Shown here one piece after another: positions 3,101 to 34,010 of a stretch of 39,175 bases of DNA; the first letter of the stretch is position 1; each line of letters starts with the position of its first letter. A program made the position numbers and the translations under genes. The notes below the pieces were generated by a model. That model was given only the letters and a program-made list of their open reading frames with translations, was not told where the DNA came from and made no database searches. Origin of the DNA: Flavobacteriales bacterium (GTDB lineage Bacteria; Bacteroidota; Bacteroidia; Flavobacteriales_F; PHOS-HE28); the NCBI GenBank assembly GCA_020847755.1, contig JADLBK010000130.1, positions 1 to 39,175 on the forward strand, read 5' to 3'.

Positions 3101-3263
3101 TGGCTTGATCGTCGGAGCCGTCGTTCACCACCACCACCTCGTCGGGCGCGCTGGTCAATGCCGCGATGCTGTCCAACGCCTCGCGCAGATAGGCGCCGTC
3201 CTTGTAGCAGGGGATCACAACAGCGATGCCTGTGGCCGGTGTTGGGTCCGCGACGTGTGCCAT
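162..3263 (-). CDS. Large bifunctional glycosyltransferase: N-terminal GT2, long coiled coil, C-terminal GT2 domains
   Basis: Translation MAHVADPTPATGIAVVIPCYKDGAYLREALDSI...VVVNDGSDD (GT2), Ala/Glu/Arg-rich heptad-like segment, then ISVVMPVYDPPVHLLDAAIRSVVDQ...DEDKND and a further VSVLIPTKDKAEVLGTCLRSL...NNDTEVI block. Start taken at the ATG at 3263, not the upstream extension of the ORF track. Confidence 0.88.
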   Translation of the reverse strand: MAHVADPTPATGIAVVIPCYKDGAYLREALDSIAALTSAPDEVVVVNDGSDDQATLQLLATLRAEGVRVIDRPNGGLAAARNTGWRATTAPHVLFLDADNRVGPELLAKLAAAVMEDPKADVFFTDKREFGLREGVVRQHATDLPRLLVGNRIDACALVRRDLLERLGGYDEAMRDGYEDWELWIRAAAAGARFHHIPEPLFDYRVRSGSLLSRADDPEVRARILRHVVDKHAELYARHAGTVAMELHRIQAYDRWLRTELEVRTAQAVQATDAARKAALAAERSAELAQGEAADARTTSEQARAEVRELRQELAEAKAAELRLRERADRDAARLEELEADKDILAAEAHRLVGEVDKAMQALSAQREHGRALQALIGQYEARIKSIERSRLWRMRMAYHKMRALMRTSSDTSSRGFKWLRRAVFLVSAKGRRILRKFLAKVFRALYLLTEERPVRILVGEQQQDLFAVQGDPYHQWMARHFARPSDLREYADLVEGFAHRPLISVVMPVYDPPVHLLDAAIRSVVDQVYTHWELCIADDRSPNAEVRRCLERWMKEDERIRVVFRDSNGHIARASNSALGLAQGAFTALMDHDDLLAPDALFHVVKRLQRDPDLDLIYTDEDKNDEQGRHSEAHFKPQWCPDHLLSRNYFGHLVVLRTALLREVGGFRPGFEGSQDYDLLLRVTERTARIAHVPRVLYHWRIHAGSAARSEEVKPYAYDAAKRALTEALERRGEPAEVGFLDGFRGYGIRFTAPLQGRVSVLIPTKDKAEVLGTCLRSLFALTDHPDLEVIVISNNSREGALFELLDDMAAREPGRFRWYRHDVPFNFSGLMNFGASKATGEHLCYLNNDTEVIHADWLRTMHSWSQRPATGAVGVKLLYPNDSIQHAGVVIGLGGVAGHTFVGYHKDGPGYFNYINTINNYSAVTAACMMVERRKLEHIGGWEEAFSVEYNDVDLCLRLREAGYHNVYLPHVSLYHFESLTRGHPHMTKESYERHLREVALFQERWRGYVDDDPCYNPNLGRGVHDWQFAL

Positions 3264-3265
3264 GC

Positions 3266-4021
3266 TCAGCCTTCCACCGGTATGCCCAACAGACCATGAT
3301 AGAAGACGCCCACCTCGTGGGTGCTGCCGACCTTCACCAGCCGCCCCGCCTCCATGCAGCCCGCGCGGTCGCAGATGCGCTGCACCTCGCCCAGGGCGTG
3401 CGACACGAAGACGATGGTGCCGCCCTTGCGCTTCAGTTCGTCGATGCGTTCGTAGCACTTCAGCTGGAAGCCCGCATCGCCCACCGCGAGGACTTCGTCG
3501 ATCAGCAGCACCTCCGGATCGTCGGTGGTGGCGATGGCGAAGCCGAGGCGGGCCATCATGCCCGTGCTGTAGCGCTTCACCGGCATGCGCAGGTCGTCGT
3601 CGCTCAGGCCTGCGAAGTGGCGCACATGGTCCACGGTGCGGTGCGTCGCGTTCCGGTCGCCGCCCATGAGGGCCGCGCAGAGCCGGGCGTTCTCCAGGCC
3701 GTTGAGCTCGGGCTCGAGGCCCACGCCCAGCGCCAGCATGGGGGCCACGCGGCCGCGCACCGTCACCGATCCGGCGGTGGGCTCCACGATGCCCGCGAGC
3801 ACGCGCAGCAGGGTGCTCTTGCCGCTGCCGTTGCGCCCCACGATGCCGAAGCACTCGCCTGCGGCGATGTCCAGGTCCACCTGCTCGATGATGCGCTTGC
3901 GCTCCAACAGGCCCTTGCCGCCGAACGACAGCAGGTACTCCTTGATCGACCGCGCCCCATGCCGCAGCACATGGTAGTCGGCCTGCAGGCCGCGCACTTC
4001 GATCATCAGCGGCGCGCTCAT
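3266..4021 (-). CDS. ABC transporter ATP-binding protein, polysaccharide export (Wzt/TagH/KpsT-like)
   Basis: Walker A GIVGRNGSGKSTLLRVLAG, signature YSTGMMARLGFA, Walker B LLIDEVLAVGD; IKEYLLSF N-terminal motif typical of polysaccharide exporters; adjacent to permease gene. Confidence 0.92.
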   Translation of the reverse strand: MSAPLMIEVRGLQADYHVLRHGARSIKEYLLSFGGKGLLERKRIIEQVDLDIAAGECFGIVGRNGSGKSTLLRVLAGIVEPTAGSVTVRGRVAPMLALGVGLEPELNGLENARLCAALMGGDRNATHRTVDHVRHFAGLSDDDLRMPVKRYSTGMMARLGFAIATTDDPEVLLIDEVLAVGDAGFQLKCYERIDELKRKGGTIVFVSHALGEVQRICDRAGCMEAGRLVKVGSTHEVGVFYHGLLGIPVEG

Positions 4022-4022
4022 C

Positions 4023-4808
4023 TCAATAGTTGGCGATCAGTCCGCGCCGCAGCGATCCGTACACGACCATGCCGAGCGCCAGCGAGGCCGCCGACAGCGC
4101 CGTCACGAGCACCATCGATCCGGCATCGGGCCATCCGCCGTCCACCACGATGGTGCGGAAGAGTCCGATGTACCAGTAGAGCGGGTCGAGCCCGGCGACC
4201 CAGCGCAGGTCGGCCGGCACCAGGTCCGGCGGATAGGCGATGGGCGTGATGTAGAAGAGCGCGGGGAGCAGCGCGTTCCACAGCAGGCCGATGTCGCGGA
4301 AGTAGACGTTGAGCGTGCTGAGGGCGAGCGACAGGCCGAACACGAACACGGCGAAGAGCACCAAGGTGGGCAGGGCCAGCAGATGCACCGGCTGCGGTCG
4401 CCAGCCGAAGGCGGCCAGCAGCAGCGCGAAGGGCAGCAGGGAGAACAGCAGGTTGATGAGCCCGGCGAAGAGCTGCGCCAGAGGGAACACCAGCGGCGGC
4501 ACAGCGAGAGAGCGCAGCACATGGGCGTTCTCCACCAGCGCCCCGAGCACGTGCGCCGAGGTGGTGGCGAAGAAGGTCCACAGGATGAGCCCGCTGAGGG
4601 CGAACACCGGGTAGTTGGCCACCTGCTCGAACGCCCGGCTGAAGATGAACAGGAAGATCGCCAGGTAGATCACCGGGTTGAGGAAGGTCCACACGAAGCC
4701 GAGGAGCGAGCTCTTGTAGCGGAGCCGGACGTTCTTCCAGGCCACCTGCAGCACCAGCGGCCAGGCGATGCGACGCCCCGGCGGGGCGTGGACGGCGGGC
4801 GCTGACAT
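4023..4808 (-). CDS. ABC transporter permease, polysaccharide export (Wzm/TagG-like)
   Basis: MSAPAVHAPPGRRIAWPLVLQVAWKNVRLRYKSSLLGFVWTFLNPVIYLAIFLFIFSRAF...; hydrophobic segments; only this C-terminal part of the 1137-aa ORF is plausible coding. Confidence 0.92.
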   Translation of the reverse strand: MSAPAVHAPPGRRIAWPLVLQVAWKNVRLRYKSSLLGFVWTFLNPVIYLAIFLFIFSRAFEQVANYPVFALSGLILWTFFATTSAHVLGALVENAHVLRSLAVPPLVFPLAQLFAGLINLLFSLLPFALLLAAFGWRPQPVHLLALPTLVLFAVFVFGLSLALSTLNVYFRDIGLLWNALLPALFYITPIAYPPDLVPADLRWVAGLDPLYWYIGLFRTIVVDGGWPDAGSMVLVTALSAASLALGMVVYGSLRRGLIANY

Positions 4809-27169: not shown

Positions 27170-27826
27170 TCAGTGGTCGGTGCTGGAGGGCTTGAAGCCG
27201 ATCCGCTTGCGCGGCTCCGAAGGCGGAGCGAGCAGTTGCTTGAGATGATGGAAGAGCAGTTGGATATCGGCGCCCTGCTCCCCCACCCTGCGTTCCAACT
27301 GCTCCAGCCGCAGGAGGATGTCCTGGTGGGCGAGCATCACCTGGCGCATCCTCACAAAGAGGTCGATCACCCGGATGCTGACGGCGATGGCACGCGGGCT
27401 GCGCAGCAGGTTGGCGAGCATGAGGATGCCGTGCTCGGTGAAGGCGAAGGGCGGGTATTTGCCGTGCTCGCCCTGCTTTAAGGTCGCATTCTGCGACCTT
27501 AAAGCGTGGTCCTCCTCGAGCGTGAGCTCGAACATGAACGCTTCGGGGAAGCGCTCCATGTTCCGTCGCACCTGCTCCTTGAGCCGCTTGACCTCCACGC
27601 CATACAGCCCGGCCAGATCCCGATCGAGCATGACGCGCTGGCCCCGGATGAGGTGGAGCCGGCCCAGAAGCTGTTCATCGGTGGGAACCGGGGCGCCGTA
27701 GCCGGCAGGAGGCTCGGCCACCACGAGGTGCTCCACCGGCAGCAGGTCCGTGTGAGGCGACCTGAACGCAGGCCGTGCGCGGCGCAGGTCGGTGCGCGGG
27801 CGGCGGATCGTTGCCAGGGTTCCCAT
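27170..27826 (-). CDS. ORF6N (KilA-N-associated) domain protein
   Basis: IRGQRVMLDRDLAGLYGVEVKRLKEQVRRNMERFPEAFMFELTLEE...LRSQNATLKQGEHGKYPPFAFTEHGILMLANLLRS. Confidence 0.93.
   Translation of the reverse strand: MGTLATIRRPRTDLRRARPAFRSPHTDLLPVEHLVVAEPPAGYGAPVPTDEQLLGRLHLIRGQRVMLDRDLAGLYGVEVKRLKEQVRRNMERFPEAFMFELTLEEDHALRSQNATLKQGEHGKYPPFAFTEHGILMLANLLRSPRAIAVSIRVIDLFVRMRQVMLAHQDILLRLEQLERRVGEQGADIQLLFHHLKQLLAPPSEPRKRIGFKPSSTDH
27475..27505. repeat. 14-bp perfect inverted repeat inside the ORF6N gene (gctttaaggtcgca ttc tgcgaccttaaagc)
   Basis: Read directly; encodes ALRSQNATLK on the minus strand. Confidence 0.97.
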
Positions 27827-27884: not shown

Positions 27885-27944
27885 CATGACGGATATTTTG
27901 TCAGCGCGGAGCTGTTGGCCGGACGTGGGCTTCCGCCAGGGATG

Positions 27945-28054
27945 GCAGCGGCAGCCTGCCGCTGGACGGGCCTGCGGAAGGGTGCAGCGAGGAGGCGACC
28001 AGCGGAAGCCACCGGAGCGCCCCGGCCGCTGGACCGGACAAGGCAGCTACAGCG
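27945..28054 (+). repeat. Dispersed intergenic repeat element, copy A
   Basis: Blocks gcagcggcagcctgc (27945-27959), gtgcagcgaggaggc (27982-27996), gcagctacagcg (28043-28054) shared in order and near-identical spacing with copy B. Confidence 0.75.
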
Positions 28055-28177
28055 GACAGCCCGTTCCCGCCGCTTTGGGCGGGAGGCGGCCAAAGCACCC
28101 ACATGGATCGAAGCACCCGTAGCGTCGACCCACCGGGGTCGACCCGACCCAACGCCAGTCTGTGCAGGAGAATGAAA

Positions 28178-28202
28178 AATGTAGAATGATGAATGTAGAA
28201 TG
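28178..28202. repeat. AT-rich short direct repeat (aatgtagaatg x2, 14-nt period)
   Basis: 28178-28188 and 28192-28202 identical. Confidence 0.9.
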
Positions 28203-28241
28203 GAGAACAGGTAGCGCACCATCCTCCACCTCGACCTGTAA

Positions 28242-28261
28242 GGCCGCATCATGATGCGGCC
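28242..28261. promoter_or_regulatory. Perfect 20-bp palindrome GGCCGCATCATGATGCGGCC upstream of dinB
   Basis: Equals its own reverse complement. Confidence 0.6.
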
Positions 28262-28268
28262 CAACGCC

Positions 28269-29486
28269 ATGGAACGCACCATCCTCCACCTGGACCTCAA
28301 CACCTTCTTCGTTTCCGTGGAACGCCTGCGCGAGCCGCGGCTGAACGGCAAGCCCGTGCTGATCGGCAGCGACAGCGACCGCGGCGTGGTGGCATCGTGC
28401 AGCTACGAGGCGCGCGCCTTCGGCATACGCAGCGCCATGCCCATGAAGATGGCCAAGCAGCTGTGCCCGGAGGCGATCATCCTGCGCGGTGACAGCGGGG
28501 CCTACCTGAAGAAAAGCGATGAGGTGACGGAGATCATCCGCGCCAGCGTGCCGCTCTTCGAGAAGAGCAGCGTGGACGAGTTCTACGTGGACCTGAGCGG
28601 CACCGACCGCTTCCACGGCAGCCGCAAGCTGGCGGCGGAACTGCGGCAGCGCATCATCAAGGAAAGCGGACTGCCCAACAGCTTCGGCATGAGCATCAAC
28701 AAGACGGTGAGCAAGGTGGCCACCGGCGAGGCCAAGCAGGGGCCCGGCGAATGGTACGTGGAGCGCGGCACGGAGAAACCCTTTCTGGCGCCCATGCCCA
28801 TTGAGCGCATCCCCGGCGTGGGCGAGAAGACGGCACACCTGCTGCGCAGCATGGGCGTGGCGAAGATCCACACGCTGCAGGAGGTGCCGGTGGACCTGAT
28901 GCAGCGCCTGCTGGGCGAGCACGGGCCGGTGCTGTGGCGCAAGGCCAACGGCATCGACGACAGCCCCGTGGTGGCATGGCACGAGCGCAAGAGCATCAGC
29001 ACCGAACGCACCTTCGAGCGCGACACCATCGATGTGGTGAAGCTGCGCGGCCTGCTCACCGCCATGGCCGAGAGCCTGACCTTCCAGCTGCGCAAGGGCG
29101 CCAAGCTCACCAGTTGCGTGGCCGTGAAGATCCGCTACGCCGACTTCAACACGCACACGCGGCAGCAGCGCATTCCCTACACGGCGTGCGACCACCTGAT
29201 CCTGCCCACGGTGCACGAGCTGTTCCGCGCGCTGTACGACAGGCGGCAGCGCATCCGCCTCATCGGCGTGCGCTTCAGCCACCTGGTGGGCGGCGGGCAC
29301 CAGATGAACGTGTTCACCGACACCGAGGAGGCGATGAACCTGTACCAGGCGATGGACAAGATCCGCAAGCGCTTCGGTGACCGCACGGTGATGCGCGCAA
29401 GCGGCATGGATGCGAAGAGCATCGGGCGCATGGACAACCCCTTTGATGGGCAGGCGCCGGTGCTGTTGGCGAACAGGCGGACGTAA
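28269..29486 (+). CDS. dinB: DNA polymerase IV (Y-family)
   Basis: MERTILHLDLNTFFVSVERLREPRLNGKPVLIGSDSDRGVVASCSYEARAFGIRSAMPMKMAKQLCP..., SSVDEFYVDLSG catalytic motif. ORF-track start 28251 also possible. Confidence 0.95.
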   Translation: MERTILHLDLNTFFVSVERLREPRLNGKPVLIGSDSDRGVVASCSYEARAFGIRSAMPMKMAKQLCPEAIILRGDSGAYLKKSDEVTEIIRASVPLFEKSSVDEFYVDLSGTDRFHGSRKLAAELRQRIIKESGLPNSFGMSINKTVSKVATGEAKQGPGEWYVERGTEKPFLAPMPIERIPGVGEKTAHLLRSMGVAKIHTLQEVPVDLMQRLLGEHGPVLWRKANGIDDSPVVAWHERKSISTERTFERDTIDVVKLRGLLTAMAESLTFQLRKGAKLTSCVAVKIRYADFNTHTRQQRIPYTACDHLILPTVHELFRALYDRRQRIRLIGVRFSHLVGGGHQMNVFTDTEEAMNLYQAMDKIRKRFGDRTVMRASGMDAKSIGRMDNPFDGQAPVLLANRRT

Positions 29487-29782: not shown

Positions 29783-32770
29783 ATGGCCCGATCGATCCTC
29801 CTTCTCCCGGTCCTGATCCCGATCCTTCAGGTTGTCGCACAACCCGGTCATCTGGATCCGACGTTCAATCCCATCGACCATGGCCATGGTCATGGTGCAG
29901 GTGCGAACAATGTGGTGCTCAGTGCGCTTGCCCAGTCGGATGGGCGTACGATCATCGGAGGGCTTTTCACCCAATTCGAGGGCCAGAGCTGTCCGTACAT
30001 CGCACGGGTGAACGTGGATGGAACACATGACCCTGCGTTCCTGAACGGAGGAGGGCCCAATGCCGGTGTCTGGGCCCTGGCACAACAGCCCGATGGAAAG
30101 GTCGTGGTGGCTGGAAGCTTCACCGAGTACAATGGGGTGTCGCGCAGTCGTATCGCGCGGCTCTTCCCGGATGGCACCTTGGATCCTTCGTTCGATCCCG
30201 GGGTCGGCCCGAACGCCACGATCACCCGGATCATCATCGCCCCGGACGGGAGGATCCTGGTCCTGGGATCCTTCAGCTTCTACAACGGTGCGCTGCGCCC
30301 ACAGTTGGCGCGCCTGAACACCGATGGCACGTTGGACAATTCGCTGAACCCCGGCACCGGTTTCACTGGCGGGTTCGTCGGCCAGGCCCATGCCATGGCC
30401 CTCCAACCCGACGGGAAGATCCTGGTCGGTGGCGACTTCTCAACCTACAATGGCAACGCGCGGAACAACATCGTGCGGCTCAACAGCAACGGCACCCAGG
30501 ACTTCACCTTCGATGTGAACAACGGCGGGCCGAACGGCGAGGTCCGCACCATCGCCATCCAGAACGATGGTCGCATCATCGTAGGCGGAACTTTCAGCGA
30601 GTACAGCAGTGTGCCGCGCTCCAACATCGCCCGTTTGAACACGACCGGCCTTACGGATGCCACATTCACCGCAAGCGGTACGGATGGCGCTGTGAGCAGT
30701 TCCCATGTGCTGCCGGATGGCAAGATCCTCATCGGCGGGGCCTTCGAGAGCTACAATGGGACCCTGCGCCGGCGGCTCCTCAGGCTCAATGTGGACGGGA
30801 CCCTGGATCCAGGCTTCGATCCCGGGCGGGCCCATCGTTCGGGCACTGTACTGGCGTTCGCACCACATGCCGATGGCAGGACGGTACTGGGGGGTGACTT
30901 CGATTCGTTCGCCATCGTGGGGCACGCACACGTGCGGAGGATCAACGACAATGGCAGTGAGGACGTATCGTTCTCCGGAACCGGGGTGAGCCATCAGGTG
31001 ACCTGCATGGCGGTCCAGTCCGATGATAGGATGCTCATCGGCGGTCCGTTCGATGCACACAATGGATCGAACAGTGCGCACCTCGCACGTTTGCTGCCGG
31101 ATGGCGCGAAGGACCCGGCGTTCGAACCTGGCGCGGGAGTGGCCGGATCCTCGGTCAACGCGATCGTGGTGCAACCGGATGGGAAGATCCTCATCGGCGG
31201 GGAGTTCCTGATGTACGACCTTACGGTCCGCCGGCGCATCGCACGGCTCCATGCGAACGGCAGCCTGGACAACAGCTTCCTTCCCGGCTTCGGCCCCAAC
31301 GCCGAGGTGCGCGCCATCGCCGTACAGACCGATGGCAAGCTGGTGGTAGCGGGCGATTTCACCGATTGGAACGGTACCGCCTGCCAGCGCATCGTCCGCC
31401 TCAATGCCGATGGCAGCCTGGATGGCACCTTCTCCTTGAGCGGAGCGGACGGTCCGATCCATGCCGTGATCATCCGTTCGGACGGGCGTATGTACGTGGG
31501 CGGTGCGTTCACCACGATGAGCGGCTTCCCACGGAACCGGGTCGCACGGATCCAGGTCAACGGTGGCAACGACGCCGCCTTTACGCCTGGTACCGGTGCC
31601 GATGGCGAGGTGCATGCACTCGCGATCGATGGTGCCGGCGGCCTCCTCATCGGCGGCACGTTCACCAACTACAACGGCACGCCATGCGGCCGCATGGCGC
31701 GCCTCCTGGCGACCGGGGATCTCGATGCCTCCTATATCACCGGCAGCGGAGCGAACGACGCGGTGGAGGCCATCGTCATGCAGGCTGACGGCAAGGCGCT
31801 CGTCGCCGGCCACTTCATCGCCTTCAATGGCACGGCGCGCGAGCGGTTGGCGCGCCTGCAGACGAACGGGGCCCTGGATCCCACGTTCAGTTCAGGCGGT
31901 GTCATGAACGGGAGCGTGAACACGATCGCCCGGCAATCCACCGGAAAGGTCGTCATCGGTGGTGCCTTCACCGTCCATGATGGTGTTGGGCGCAATCGCA
32001 TCTCGCGCGTCCACGGGACCAACGACCTTGTGCGCCTGCGCCCCAGGCTTTGGCTCGAAGGGCCGTTCGACAGCGACTCCCTGCTCATGAGCGACGACCT
32101 TCGTTCATTGACGGAATTCCCATTGGAGGAACCTTACACCGCCCTGGGCTACGCGCATGCGATCGGCGGAGGGGCTGAACGCATGCCCACCTATCTGCTT
32201 CACACCAGCGGCGCGAACGCGATCGTGGATTGGGTGCTGGTCGAACTACGCAGCATCGTATCCCCCGGGATCGTCCTAAGCTCACGGTCAGGCCTGCTCC
32301 AGCGGGATGGTGATGTGGTGGACCTTGACGGAGTGAGCCCGTTGGTGTTCCCTGTCGCACCCGGCCTGTACAAGGTCGCAGTGAAGCATCGGAACCACCT
32401 CGGATGCATGACCGGCGGGAACATTTCCCTCCAGAACTCCTCCCTCACCACCGTGGACCTCAGAACCGGATTGACGAGCACCTTCGGCACGGACGCACGC
32501 AAGACCATCGGCTCGGCCCGTGCCCTCTGGGCCGGCGATGTCACCTTCAACGGCCAGATAAAGTATACAGGTGGAGGCAATGATCGCGACCCCATCCTGG
32601 TGCGTATCGGCGGCAACGTGCCGACCGCGGTCACCAGCGGCTACCATCAAGAGGATGTGAACATGACCGGCGAGGTGAAATACGCCGGTAGCGGCAACGA
32701 CCGCGACATCATCCTCCAGAACATCGGTGGAACGGTGCCCAGCAACGTGCGCGTGCAACAACTGCCATAG
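29783..32770 (+). CDS. Secreted delta-60 repeat protein with C-terminal double dockerin-like module
   Basis: Signal peptide; 14 repeats 'xPDGKILIGGxFxxYNGxxRxxIARLNxDGTLDxxF'; C-terminus WAGDVTFNGQIKYTGGGNDRDPILVRIGGN...EDVNMTGEVKYAGSGNDRDIILQNIGGTVPSNVRVQQLP. Confidence 0.9.
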   Translation: MARSILLLPVLIPILQVVAQPGHLDPTFNPIDHGHGHGAGANNVVLSALAQSDGRTIIGGLFTQFEGQSCPYIARVNVDGTHDPAFLNGGGPNAGVWALAQQPDGKVVVAGSFTEYNGVSRSRIARLFPDGTLDPSFDPGVGPNATITRIIIAPDGRILVLGSFSFYNGALRPQLARLNTDGTLDNSLNPGTGFTGGFVGQAHAMALQPDGKILVGGDFSTYNGNARNNIVRLNSNGTQDFTFDVNNGGPNGEVRTIAIQNDGRIIVGGTFSEYSSVPRSNIARLNTTGLTDATFTASGTDGAVSSSHVLPDGKILIGGAFESYNGTLRRRLLRLNVDGTLDPGFDPGRAHRSGTVLAFAPHADGRTVLGGDFDSFAIVGHAHVRRINDNGSEDVSFSGTGVSHQVTCMAVQSDDRMLIGGPFDAHNGSNSAHLARLLPDGAKDPAFEPGAGVAGSSVNAIVVQPDGKILIGGEFLMYDLTVRRRIARLHANGSLDNSFLPGFGPNAEVRAIAVQTDGKLVVAGDFTDWNGTACQRIVRLNADGSLDGTFSLSGADGPIHAVIIRSDGRMYVGGAFTTMSGFPRNRVARIQVNGGNDAAFTPGTGADGEVHALAIDGAGGLLIGGTFTNYNGTPCGRMARLLATGDLDASYITGSGANDAVEAIVMQADGKALVAGHFIAFNGTARERLARLQTNGALDPTFSSGGVMNGSVNTIARQSTGKVVIGGAFTVHDGVGRNRISRVHGTNDLVRLRPRLWLEGPFDSDSLLMSDDLRSLTEFPLEEPYTALGYAHAIGGGAERMPTYLLHTSGANAIVDWVLVELRSIVSPGIVLSSRSGLLQRDGDVVDLDGVSPLVFPVAPGLYKVAVKHRNHLGCMTGGNISLQNSSLTTVDLRTGLTSTFGTDARKTIGSARALWAGDVTFNGQIKYTGGGNDRDPILVRIGGNVPTAVTSGYHQEDVNMTGEVKYAGSGNDRDIILQNIGGTVPSNVRVQQLP

Positions 32771-32820: not shown

Positions 32821-32967
32821 TCGCACAGCGCGACCAGGTTCCTCGCTCACCATCCTGAAGGGAAGGGCTTCGTGCGGATGGCCATGATGTGCTTCGCACA
32901 ACCTCCTGCCCCCAGTTCGCCCCAACGCCCGCTTATCCTTCTGCCCAGCGGCAGACATGGGAGGCCG

Positions 32968-33204
32968 ATGAGCTACCGGGTGGCCGGGCTGCTCGGCGAA
33001 GTGACCTTGCGCACCGTGAAGGACCGTGCCTATGCGGAGATCAGTGCCGCCGTGGGCCGGACGCTCTGCAAGATCGCGATCCACCTCCTCGACAACCAGG
33101 TGAACAGCCAGGCCAGGGCTTCTGAAAAGGATGGTGGGTTTAGCGAACGGTTGTACAAGGTGCGGAGTGCGGTGAAGAGGCAGCAGACAAAAGGCGGGGC
33201 GTAG
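32968..33204 (+). pseudogene. Probable truncated four-helix-bundle 'suffix' domain protein fragment
   Basis: Tail CKIAIHLLDNQVNSQARASEKDGGFSERLYKVRSAVKRQ resembles the four-helix bundle suffix domain; no intact preceding four-helix (IVS) domain found. Confidence 0.45.
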
Positions 33205-33257
33205 GTGTGGGCGTGCCCCCTCTTCCCTCCCACGGGCCAACGCGGGGTCCGGTGCTT

Positions 33258-33370
33258 CGCTGTAGCTGCTTCGGTCCGGCCTGCATCCACGGCGCTGCGG
33301 GGTCTGCTCCGATCGCAGCCTCCTCGCTGCACGTGGCTGCACGGCCGCTCCTTCAGCAGGCTGCCGCTGC
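33258..33370 (-). repeat. Dispersed intergenic repeat element, copy B (inverted relative to copy A)
   Basis: Minus strand blocks gcagcggcagcctgc (33370-33356), gtgcagcgaggaggc (33332-33318), gcagctacagcg (33269-33258). Confidence 0.75.
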
Positions 33371-33403
33371 GCCCCCTCACGCGGGGCATCACGTTACATT
33401 CTC

Positions 33404-33910
33404 TCAATACCCAATGACGAGGATATTCCTCAATGGAAGCTGGAGTCTTCCACTTGCATAAAGTGTCTCGAAAAATGTCGTCACCACTTCAAAGTCCTCG
33501 ACCTTTTGATAGGTGTTCCGAACAGCTATCACCAGATTGTCCACATCATGCATCATGCAAGCCTGGAACAAGTCCTTGAGGAACTGATTGTTCAACACGC
33601 CACGACCAGCTTCCACCTCGATCACTGTTCGAGTGTCCTTGTTGTATCCATCGGCGTCGAACGCCTTCTCAAGCTTGCCATTCCTCCCGAATAGCACTGG
33701 CACTCGGATCTTGTCCGGTCCTCGCTTGCTCCGTTCCACCCTGTATCCACACGCCTCCAGTCCATCCGCCACTTTCGCCAACACATCATCGCTACTCAGC
33801 CTCTTACTGCCCGAACCGATCTTCGGCTCAGCATCCCTGAAGACCTCAACGACTTGGAGGAGATGGTCCGGGATAGCATTCGATTTGGGGAAGAGTTGCC
33901 AGTTGATCAT
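33404..33910 (-). CDS. Hypothetical protein, possibly PD-(D/E)XK nuclease-like
   Basis: MINWQLFPKSNAIPDHLLQVVEVFRDAEPKI...DGYNKDTRTVIEVEAGRGVLNNQFLKDLFQACMMHDVDNLVIAVRNTY; start set by TACCTTGCGCC-ATG. Confidence 0.65.
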   Translation of the reverse strand: MINWQLFPKSNAIPDHLLQVVEVFRDAEPKIGSGSKRLSSDDVLAKVADGLEACGYRVERSKRGPDKIRVPVLFGRNGKLEKAFDADGYNKDTRTVIEVEAGRGVLNNQFLKDLFQACMMHDVDNLVIAVRNTYQKVEDFEVVTTFFETLYASGRLQLPLRNILVIGY

Positions 33911-34010
33911 GGCGCAAGGTATCGACCACGACCTCGGCGTCACCACCCAACGCACCTACTCCGTGAAGCGCATCGACAGCGACTTCTTTGGGGAGGATTG
34001 ACAGCCCGGC

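Follow-up and report, generated by a model that had tools for sequence, protein, structure and literature searches.

A mobile structured repeat of wastewater Flavobacteriales as a possible boundary for accessory-gene exchange

Two copies of a GC-rich repeat in one contig

The DNA considered here (the window) is a stretch of 39,175 nucleotides from a Flavobacteriales bacterium, contig JADLBK010000130.1 of assembly GCA_020847755.1. It contains two copies, A and B, of a repeat whose fold has three parts: a closing stem (P1), a long imperfect hairpin (P2) and a third hairpin that can be swapped (P3). The copies and their neighbors are arranged as follows:

27170..27826, minus strand: ORF6N-domain gene, 5′ neighbor of copy A (variable side); Pfam ORF6N 1.7e-31; PADLOC candidate PDC-S05, 9e-51
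27933..28091, plus strand: copy A, full element of 159 nt, subtype 2 (P1 CCGCC/GGCGG); covariance-model match, ends from P1 pairing and alignment with L077/L078/L079
27933..27937, plus strand: copy A, P1 5′ strand CCGCC, paired with GGCGG at 28085-28089
27939..28063, plus strand: copy A, P2 long imperfect hairpin, approximate limits from alignment to the model (30-pair consensus)
28064..28084, plus strand: copy A, P3, the CCCGCCGCTTTGGGCGGG hairpin region, approximate limits, read in the sequence
28085..28089, plus strand: copy A, P1 3′ strand GGCGG, from P1 pairing
28251..29486, plus strand: dinB (Y-family polymerase), 3′ neighbor of copy A (recurrent side); Pfam IMS 2e-44; same site in other species
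32872..33204, plus strand: small four-helix-bundle-like gene, 3′ neighbor of copy B; BLAST cluster with the 3′ neighbors of 8 other copies
33209..33382, minus strand: copy B, full element of 174 nt, main type (P1 GCGTG/CACGC); covariance-model match, boundaries from transposed pairs
33211..33215, minus strand: copy B, P1 3′ strand CACGC, from P1 pairing
33378..33382, minus strand: copy B, P1 5′ strand GCGTG, paired with CACGC at 33211-33215
33404..33955, minus strand: gene for a 183-aa protein, 5′ neighbor of copy B; homologues lie 5′ of the element in genomes G008 and G010

The two copies point inward, with dinB, a DUF5122 repeat protein and the four-helix-bundle-like gene (whose stop codon lies 4 nt from the end of copy B) between them, and the ORF6N and 183-aa protein genes outside. 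No Pfam match was found for the four-helix-bundle-like protein of the window, and neither Pfam nor PADLOC gave a match for the 183-aa protein, which looks from its sequence like a fragment of a restriction endonuclease. The DUF5122 protein (29783-32770) is large, with 14 propeller repeats, and its gene carries tandem repeats of ~153 nt.

The initial annotation had described three blocks shared by the two copies in the same order on opposite strands, and this is exact: GCAGCGGCAGCCTGC is found at 27945 (plus) and 33356 (minus), GTGCAGCGAGGAGGC at 27982 (plus) and 33318 (minus), and GCAGCTACAGCG at 28043 (plus) and 33258 (minus), each occurring only twice in the window. The gaps between them are those originally given, 22 and 46 nt in copy A and 23 and 48 nt in copy B. 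Its coordinates delimit the core of each copy correctly but not the full extent, which is larger according to the boundaries of transposed copies. The resemblance is not due to chance, as copy B used as a BLAST query retrieves copy A with E = 9e-11, together with seven more copies in the same genome at E ≤ 1.8e-16 and one more at 0.006.

A covariance model, R1, built from 36 copies matches copy B at 33387-33241 (137.1 bits, E 7.9e-25) and copy A at 27928-28071 (119.2 bits, E 2e-21). Since both window copies belong to its training set, the informative part of this result is the gap to the next-best match in the window, at 12 bits; the model finds no copies in the window other than these two. 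The GC content of the element is 74-76%, compared with 66% for the window. Small repeats lie beside copy A at 28120-28250 (tgtagaatgatgaatgtagaatgg; GTCGACCC...GGGTCGACC) and also adjoin copies in other genomes.

Distribution, ends and fold of the family

The repeat had been taken for a dispersed element, and further copies do occur, both in the same genome and in almost all genus members. With R1, 15 matches are obtained in the genome of origin (E ≤ 0.01), and 38 of 39 genus members have matches as well. A sample of the order yielded 1-16 matches at E ≤ 0.001 in 43 of 45 members, all of which belong to the element’s genus; the overall range in these 43 is 1-17 copies, with ~10-15 copies per genome. 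No copies were found by BLAST in 24 genomes from other genera of the class. An exact scan of ~85,000 species for a 23-base motif from the 5′ part returned almost only metagenome bins of Flavobacteriales/Bacteroidota, and the few actinobacterial matches look like chance. Among the genomes searched, the element is confined to a single genus of wastewater Flavobacteriales. Phage and plasmid collections contained no match, a scan of nine loci against Rfam 15 with E up to 5 gave no match overlapping the element, and no description of it was found in the open-licence literature. A bin named Chryseobacterium gleum has the element on two contigs (L164 and L196; CAMCAZ010000036.1 and CAMCAZ010000093.1); as the repeat is otherwise confined to one genus, a wrong name or a binning error is probable.

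Copies with 93-98% identity are found in pairs whose flanks are unrelated, which identifies the element as a discrete mobile unit. Such pairs can be aligned from position 0, the G of GCGTGAG, to position ~137-195, where the variable third hairpin lies, and the limits of the element are YY|GCGTGAG and CACGCCC|. Pyrimidines occupy the two positions before the 5′ end in 85% and 95% of the copies. No target-site duplication was found, flank matches outside the element being no more frequent than in shuffled pairs. The element family is accordingly a small (~150-220 nt), genus-restricted mobile non-coding unit that moves with defined ends and without detectable target-site duplication.

RNAalifold applied to 36 copies gives a single long imperfect hairpin of 30 pairs, 19 of which show changes on both sides. 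Among 98 distinct copies, 96.4% of the P2 cells are paired compared with 78.2 ± 0.5% after shuffling, and both-side changes are seen at 24 of the 30 pairs (486 cells, compared with 140 after shuffling), figures that are favored by the fitting of the 98-copy alignment to the model and, in the shuffle comparison, inflated by relatedness. Sliding by 1-3 columns reduces P2 pairing to 31-37% of cells. P1 lies outside the model. This terminal pairing of ~5 bp covaries in four forms: GCGTG pairs with CACGC in 114 of 120 copies, CCGCC with GGCGG in 8/8, GCGTA with TACGC in 5/5 and GCGCC with GGCGC in 3/3. P3, which follows P2 and precedes the 3′ strand of P1, is often GC-rich and often exchanged among otherwise near-identical copies. 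On both sides of the internal loops, a total of 21 unpaired columns are conserved at 97% or more. G.U cells outnumber A.C cells by 50 to 21, which favors the given strand as the folded one, although G.T is also tolerable in single-stranded DNA.

Between the six copies that lie upstream of dinB, each in a different species, several pairs show changes on both sides, suggesting that the fold is maintained in place at this locus, unless the copies have been replaced by conversion. One strand of the element can thus fold as P1/P2/P3, and compensatory changes, found at the dinB locus too, show that this fold is conserved. Single sequences fold only weakly better than their shuffles (z −1.5 and −1.8), and single-sequence folding energy is uninformative at the GC content of the element.

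The initial annotation is therefore supported in viewing the repeat as a constrained dispersed element rather than a recent duplication, since copies move as a discrete unit and their fold is kept by compensatory change. The options it listed for such an element were a structured RNA, a MITE-like unit and a nucleoid or regulatory site. For the same reasons, the repeat can be called both structured and a mobile small repeat. It does not fit a classical MITE, as it lacks a target-site duplication, is rich in GC and has terminal repeats of only ~5 bp, and as the loci, RAYT regions and domain searches covered here revealed no transposase with matching ends. Taken together, the element is very probably a mobile structured element.

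One-sided turnover of neighboring genes

Called genes cover ~88% of the window. Across the family, overlap with a called gene never exceeds 40 nt among the ~110 non-redundant copies for which enough flank was available. The copies are intergenic in either orientation, and the orientations of the neighboring genes are mixed, which excludes a general role as a cis-regulatory leader, although the copy at dinB could still be one. The median distance to the element is 56 nt for the 3′ ends of facing genes and 136 nt for gene starts; about every second gene end that faces its 3′ side is no more than ~30-40 nt away. At clpB, several genomes that lack the element show an ordinary hairpin terminator behind the stop codon, and in carriers the element occupies this position. 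It is thus located between genes and often directly against the 3′ end of its 3′-side neighbor.

The two sides of the element differ in the genes they adjoin. When neighboring proteins were clustered, 109 pairs of copies shared only the 3′ neighbor, 11 only the 5′ neighbor and 19 both; among 102 copies there are 78 distinct neighbor families on the 5′ side and 48 on the 3′ side. Among the recurrent 3′ neighbors are dinB, clpB, carB, a methylmalonyl-CoA-mutase-like gene, acyl-CoA dehydrogenase, dxs, dnaE and the small four-helix-bundle gene, some of these names having been assigned from sequence reading. The 3′ neighbors are usually core genes, and the 5′ neighbors differ between species. Many of these diverse 5′ neighbors resemble restriction, toxin-antitoxin, Fic, helicase or ORF6N proteins, but metabolic proteins are found as well. 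For 61 5′ neighbors PADLOC gave matches to 303 families, and for 51 3′ neighbors to 51 families, a crude count that is inflated by broad helicase models; ten hand-picked neighbor proteins went through a separate PADLOC check. Exceptions occur in both directions, with core or metabolic genes 5′ of some copies (e.g., an iron-sulphur protein) and Fic or HipB-like genes 3′ of others. The flanks of copies A and B follow the same rule, variable on the 5′ side and recurrent on the 3′ side.

The asymmetry is also seen at the DNA level, where only the 3′ flank is common to 47 pairs and only the 5′ flank to 12, a number that includes several cases at contig ends. For at least a dozen 3′-sharing pairs, homology starts within a few bases of the element’s 5′ end, and the junctions in this comparison fall at position 0. 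Copy pairs are non-independent and poor alignability of intergenic DNA could account for part of this signal, and the gene-level count is safer. Different species thus usually have different genes on the 5′ side of the element at a given 3′ neighbor, and for many pairs homology begins at the 5′ end of the element.

The history of one site can be followed between the genes for thiolase and acyl-CoA dehydrogenase. The element is absent in genome G025, where the thiolase stop codon lies 6 nt before the acyl-CoA dehydrogenase start; many relatives have cargo plus the element between the two genes. Loci L277, L278 and L283 have cargo without the element, so this hotspot attracts cargo by itself and the element is not needed for it.

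Several other arrangements were observed. At L352 (G067:C4:586000-593500), the 3′ end of thiolase is present threefold upstream of acyl-CoA dehydrogenase (2690-2742, 3186-3238 and 3904-4059), as it is also repeated at L241, and the repeats are separated by differing DNA, as if each insertion had carried one copy of the gene end. Two species (L080 and L090) share an almost identical dinD, which is a DNA-damage-inducible gene; in both, this gene is fused at the same point inside divergent copies of the element. At L355, on contig C76 of the genome of origin, two inverted copies (687-825 and 4376-4514) have their 5′ ends facing the enclosed genes, a TetR regulator and two that resemble efflux-pump components; the 3′ end of a second dinB lies outside. 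An association with the PF05635 four-helix-bundle family is real at one recurrent site (9 copies), but genomes that lack the element commonly have this gene family too, and it was rejected as a partner of the element.

Mobilization, rival explanations and known relatives

The explanation that accounts best for these observations as a whole, and which is probably correct, is that of a genus-restricted mobile structured repeat that forms a boundary for accessory-gene exchange. The element would spread as a discrete unit, usually being placed behind a gene, where it may persist by giving the host gene a 3′ end that acts like a terminator or insulator. Its 5′ end would provide a breakpoint for the exchange of restriction, toxin-antitoxin, Fic, ORF6N, dinD and other accessory genes; an active role of this kind has slightly less than an even chance. 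The fold might be recognized during mobilization by an enzyme acting in trans on a single-stranded DNA or RNA form, a step proposed with considerable doubt.

Two rivals, each held to be a minority possibility of some substance, concern the nature of the fold. One is a non-autonomous, MITE-like derivative of an unrecognized insertion sequence, in which the fold would result merely from inverted repeats and the flank asymmetry from tolerated sites. It would account for a short, intergenic, multi-copy element with paired ends, and it is the usual reading of small bacterial mobile repeats (PMC2229807). However, the lack of target-site duplications, the GC content above that of the window and the short terminal pairing argue against it, as do the conserved unpaired columns and the double compensation within one locus. 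MITE membership itself was rejected on target-site duplication and A+T-richness. The other is a structured RNA that has spread, either a small RNA or an mRNA-end element (terminator, RNase III site or stability element), with selection acting on the transcript. This reading would fit the compensatory change in place at dinB, the excess of G.U over A.C, the proximity to gene 3′ ends and the replacement of the clpB terminator, but it is at odds with the lack of orientation bias toward neighbors, the lack of an Rfam match and the finding of no promoter or U-tract terminator at the window copies.

Other rivals concern the machinery. No linked transposase, integrase or reverse transcriptase was found: no tyrosine recombinase or integrase lies near copies by coordinates, and no transposase-coding element sharing the element’s ends was found in ~1.5 Mb of loci, RAYT regions and domain searches. 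RAYT-like proteins are present in most of the genus genomes searched, which would suit a REP/BIME-type repeat moved by a RAYT (Y1_Tnp) transposase. This is largely refuted and now very improbable, as none of 20 RAYT/Y1_Tnp regions carries the element nearby; linkage to RAYT was rejected because the REP that goes with these genes is a different one. The REP-like palindrome GCGCGAGCGTCCACGCTCGTGCC flanks several of them instead (L340 1079, 1133 and 1760; L341; L342). Retron non-coding RNAs have paired ends around a long hairpin, an outline that resembles the element. A retroelement remnant (retron msd, group II intron or DGR) is nevertheless hardly conceivable and is refuted for most genomes, as RVT_1 is absent from 14 of 16 carrier genomes (present in 2), on which ground a reverse transcriptase was also rejected as the mobilizer, and Rfam gave no match. 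Integron attC sites are long imperfect single-strand hairpins adjoining exchangeable genes, and the element possibly works alike. An attC-type site into which cargo inserts site-specifically at the 5′ end YY|GCGTGAG would explain the 5′-end breakpoints in many species pairs, the same-orientation gene-element-gene-element arrays at L137, L186 and L129, the 5′ ends truncated beside cargo (L080-L083, L086) and the efflux-like cargo enclosed on C76. Against it, there is no linked integrase, inspection of the ends YYGCGTGAG and CACGCCC revealed no R boxes (RYYYAAC/GTTRRRY), the element is dispersed rather than found in long arrays, and most cargos lack a second element at the far side within 4 kb; such a site is unlikely. 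A little less likely still is a dedicated recombination site that resembles attC but lacks an integron integrase, the 5′ end of the hairpin being cut and joined by a putative chromosomal recombinase. If this were true, defense, toxin-antitoxin and other accessory genes would be swapped beside core genes.

For the mobile structured repeat, the nearest known kinds by architecture would be BOX, YPAL/RU-2 and ERIC. ERIC is a long imperfect palindrome. Like these, the element is short, non-coding, intergenic, multi-copy and clade-restricted, with discrete ends and a conserved fold. BOX, from Streptococcus pneumoniae, is likewise small, modular, intergenic and confined to a species group, with paired termini and an exchangeable inner module, boxB, that is comparable to P3; it differs in making target-site duplications and in containing variable numbers of one module (PMC3049150). 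The element has no detectable target-site duplication, is GC-rich and combines a three-part fold with asymmetric flank exchange; its sequence relation to BOX was compared via Rfam only. YPAL/RU-2 from Yersinia is 168 bp long, not A+T-rich, lacks a terminal TA and is found at sites near dyad symmetries, but it makes duplications of 3-26 bp, whereas none were found for the element, and belongs to a different clade (PMC2229807). ERIC (RU-1) of enterobacteria is a conserved intergenic repeat of ~127 bp with many copies (PMC2229807), and differs from the element in length, ends and clade; neither PMC3049150 nor PMC2229807 describes it as marking where accessory genes are exchanged. SPRITE is similarly enriched beside gene 3′ ends and is possibly a terminator, but it is AT-rich with a U-rich tract (PMC3049150), in contrast to the GC-rich element, which has no such tract. 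The best reading is a GC-rich, ERIC/BOX/YPAL-like mobile structured element, new among the small mobile structured repeats.

Most descriptions of small mobile repeats come from well-studied pathogens, and the mode of movement of these repeats is mostly obscure. The present family offers more than 100 copies in ~45 related species, with a fold backed by covariation, sharp ends, element-free sites and one-sided turnover. Such a set makes it possible to test what mobilizes a structured element without a transposase and whether such elements steer the acquisition of defense genes. The elements should be marked in the annotation of these wastewater genomes.

A second, shorter class of elements was observed that has the same ends (GCGTGAG...CACGCC) and another hairpin core (e.g., GCGGAAAGCCC...GAGGACTTG). 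It is also present in the genome of origin, the only one to be returned by an exact-pattern search of 299 genomes of the phylum. Elements of this class lie at L329 227-346, L330 about 1425-1530, L303 1304, L305 1279, L268 (reverse) 6068, L233 7344 and L183 3582.
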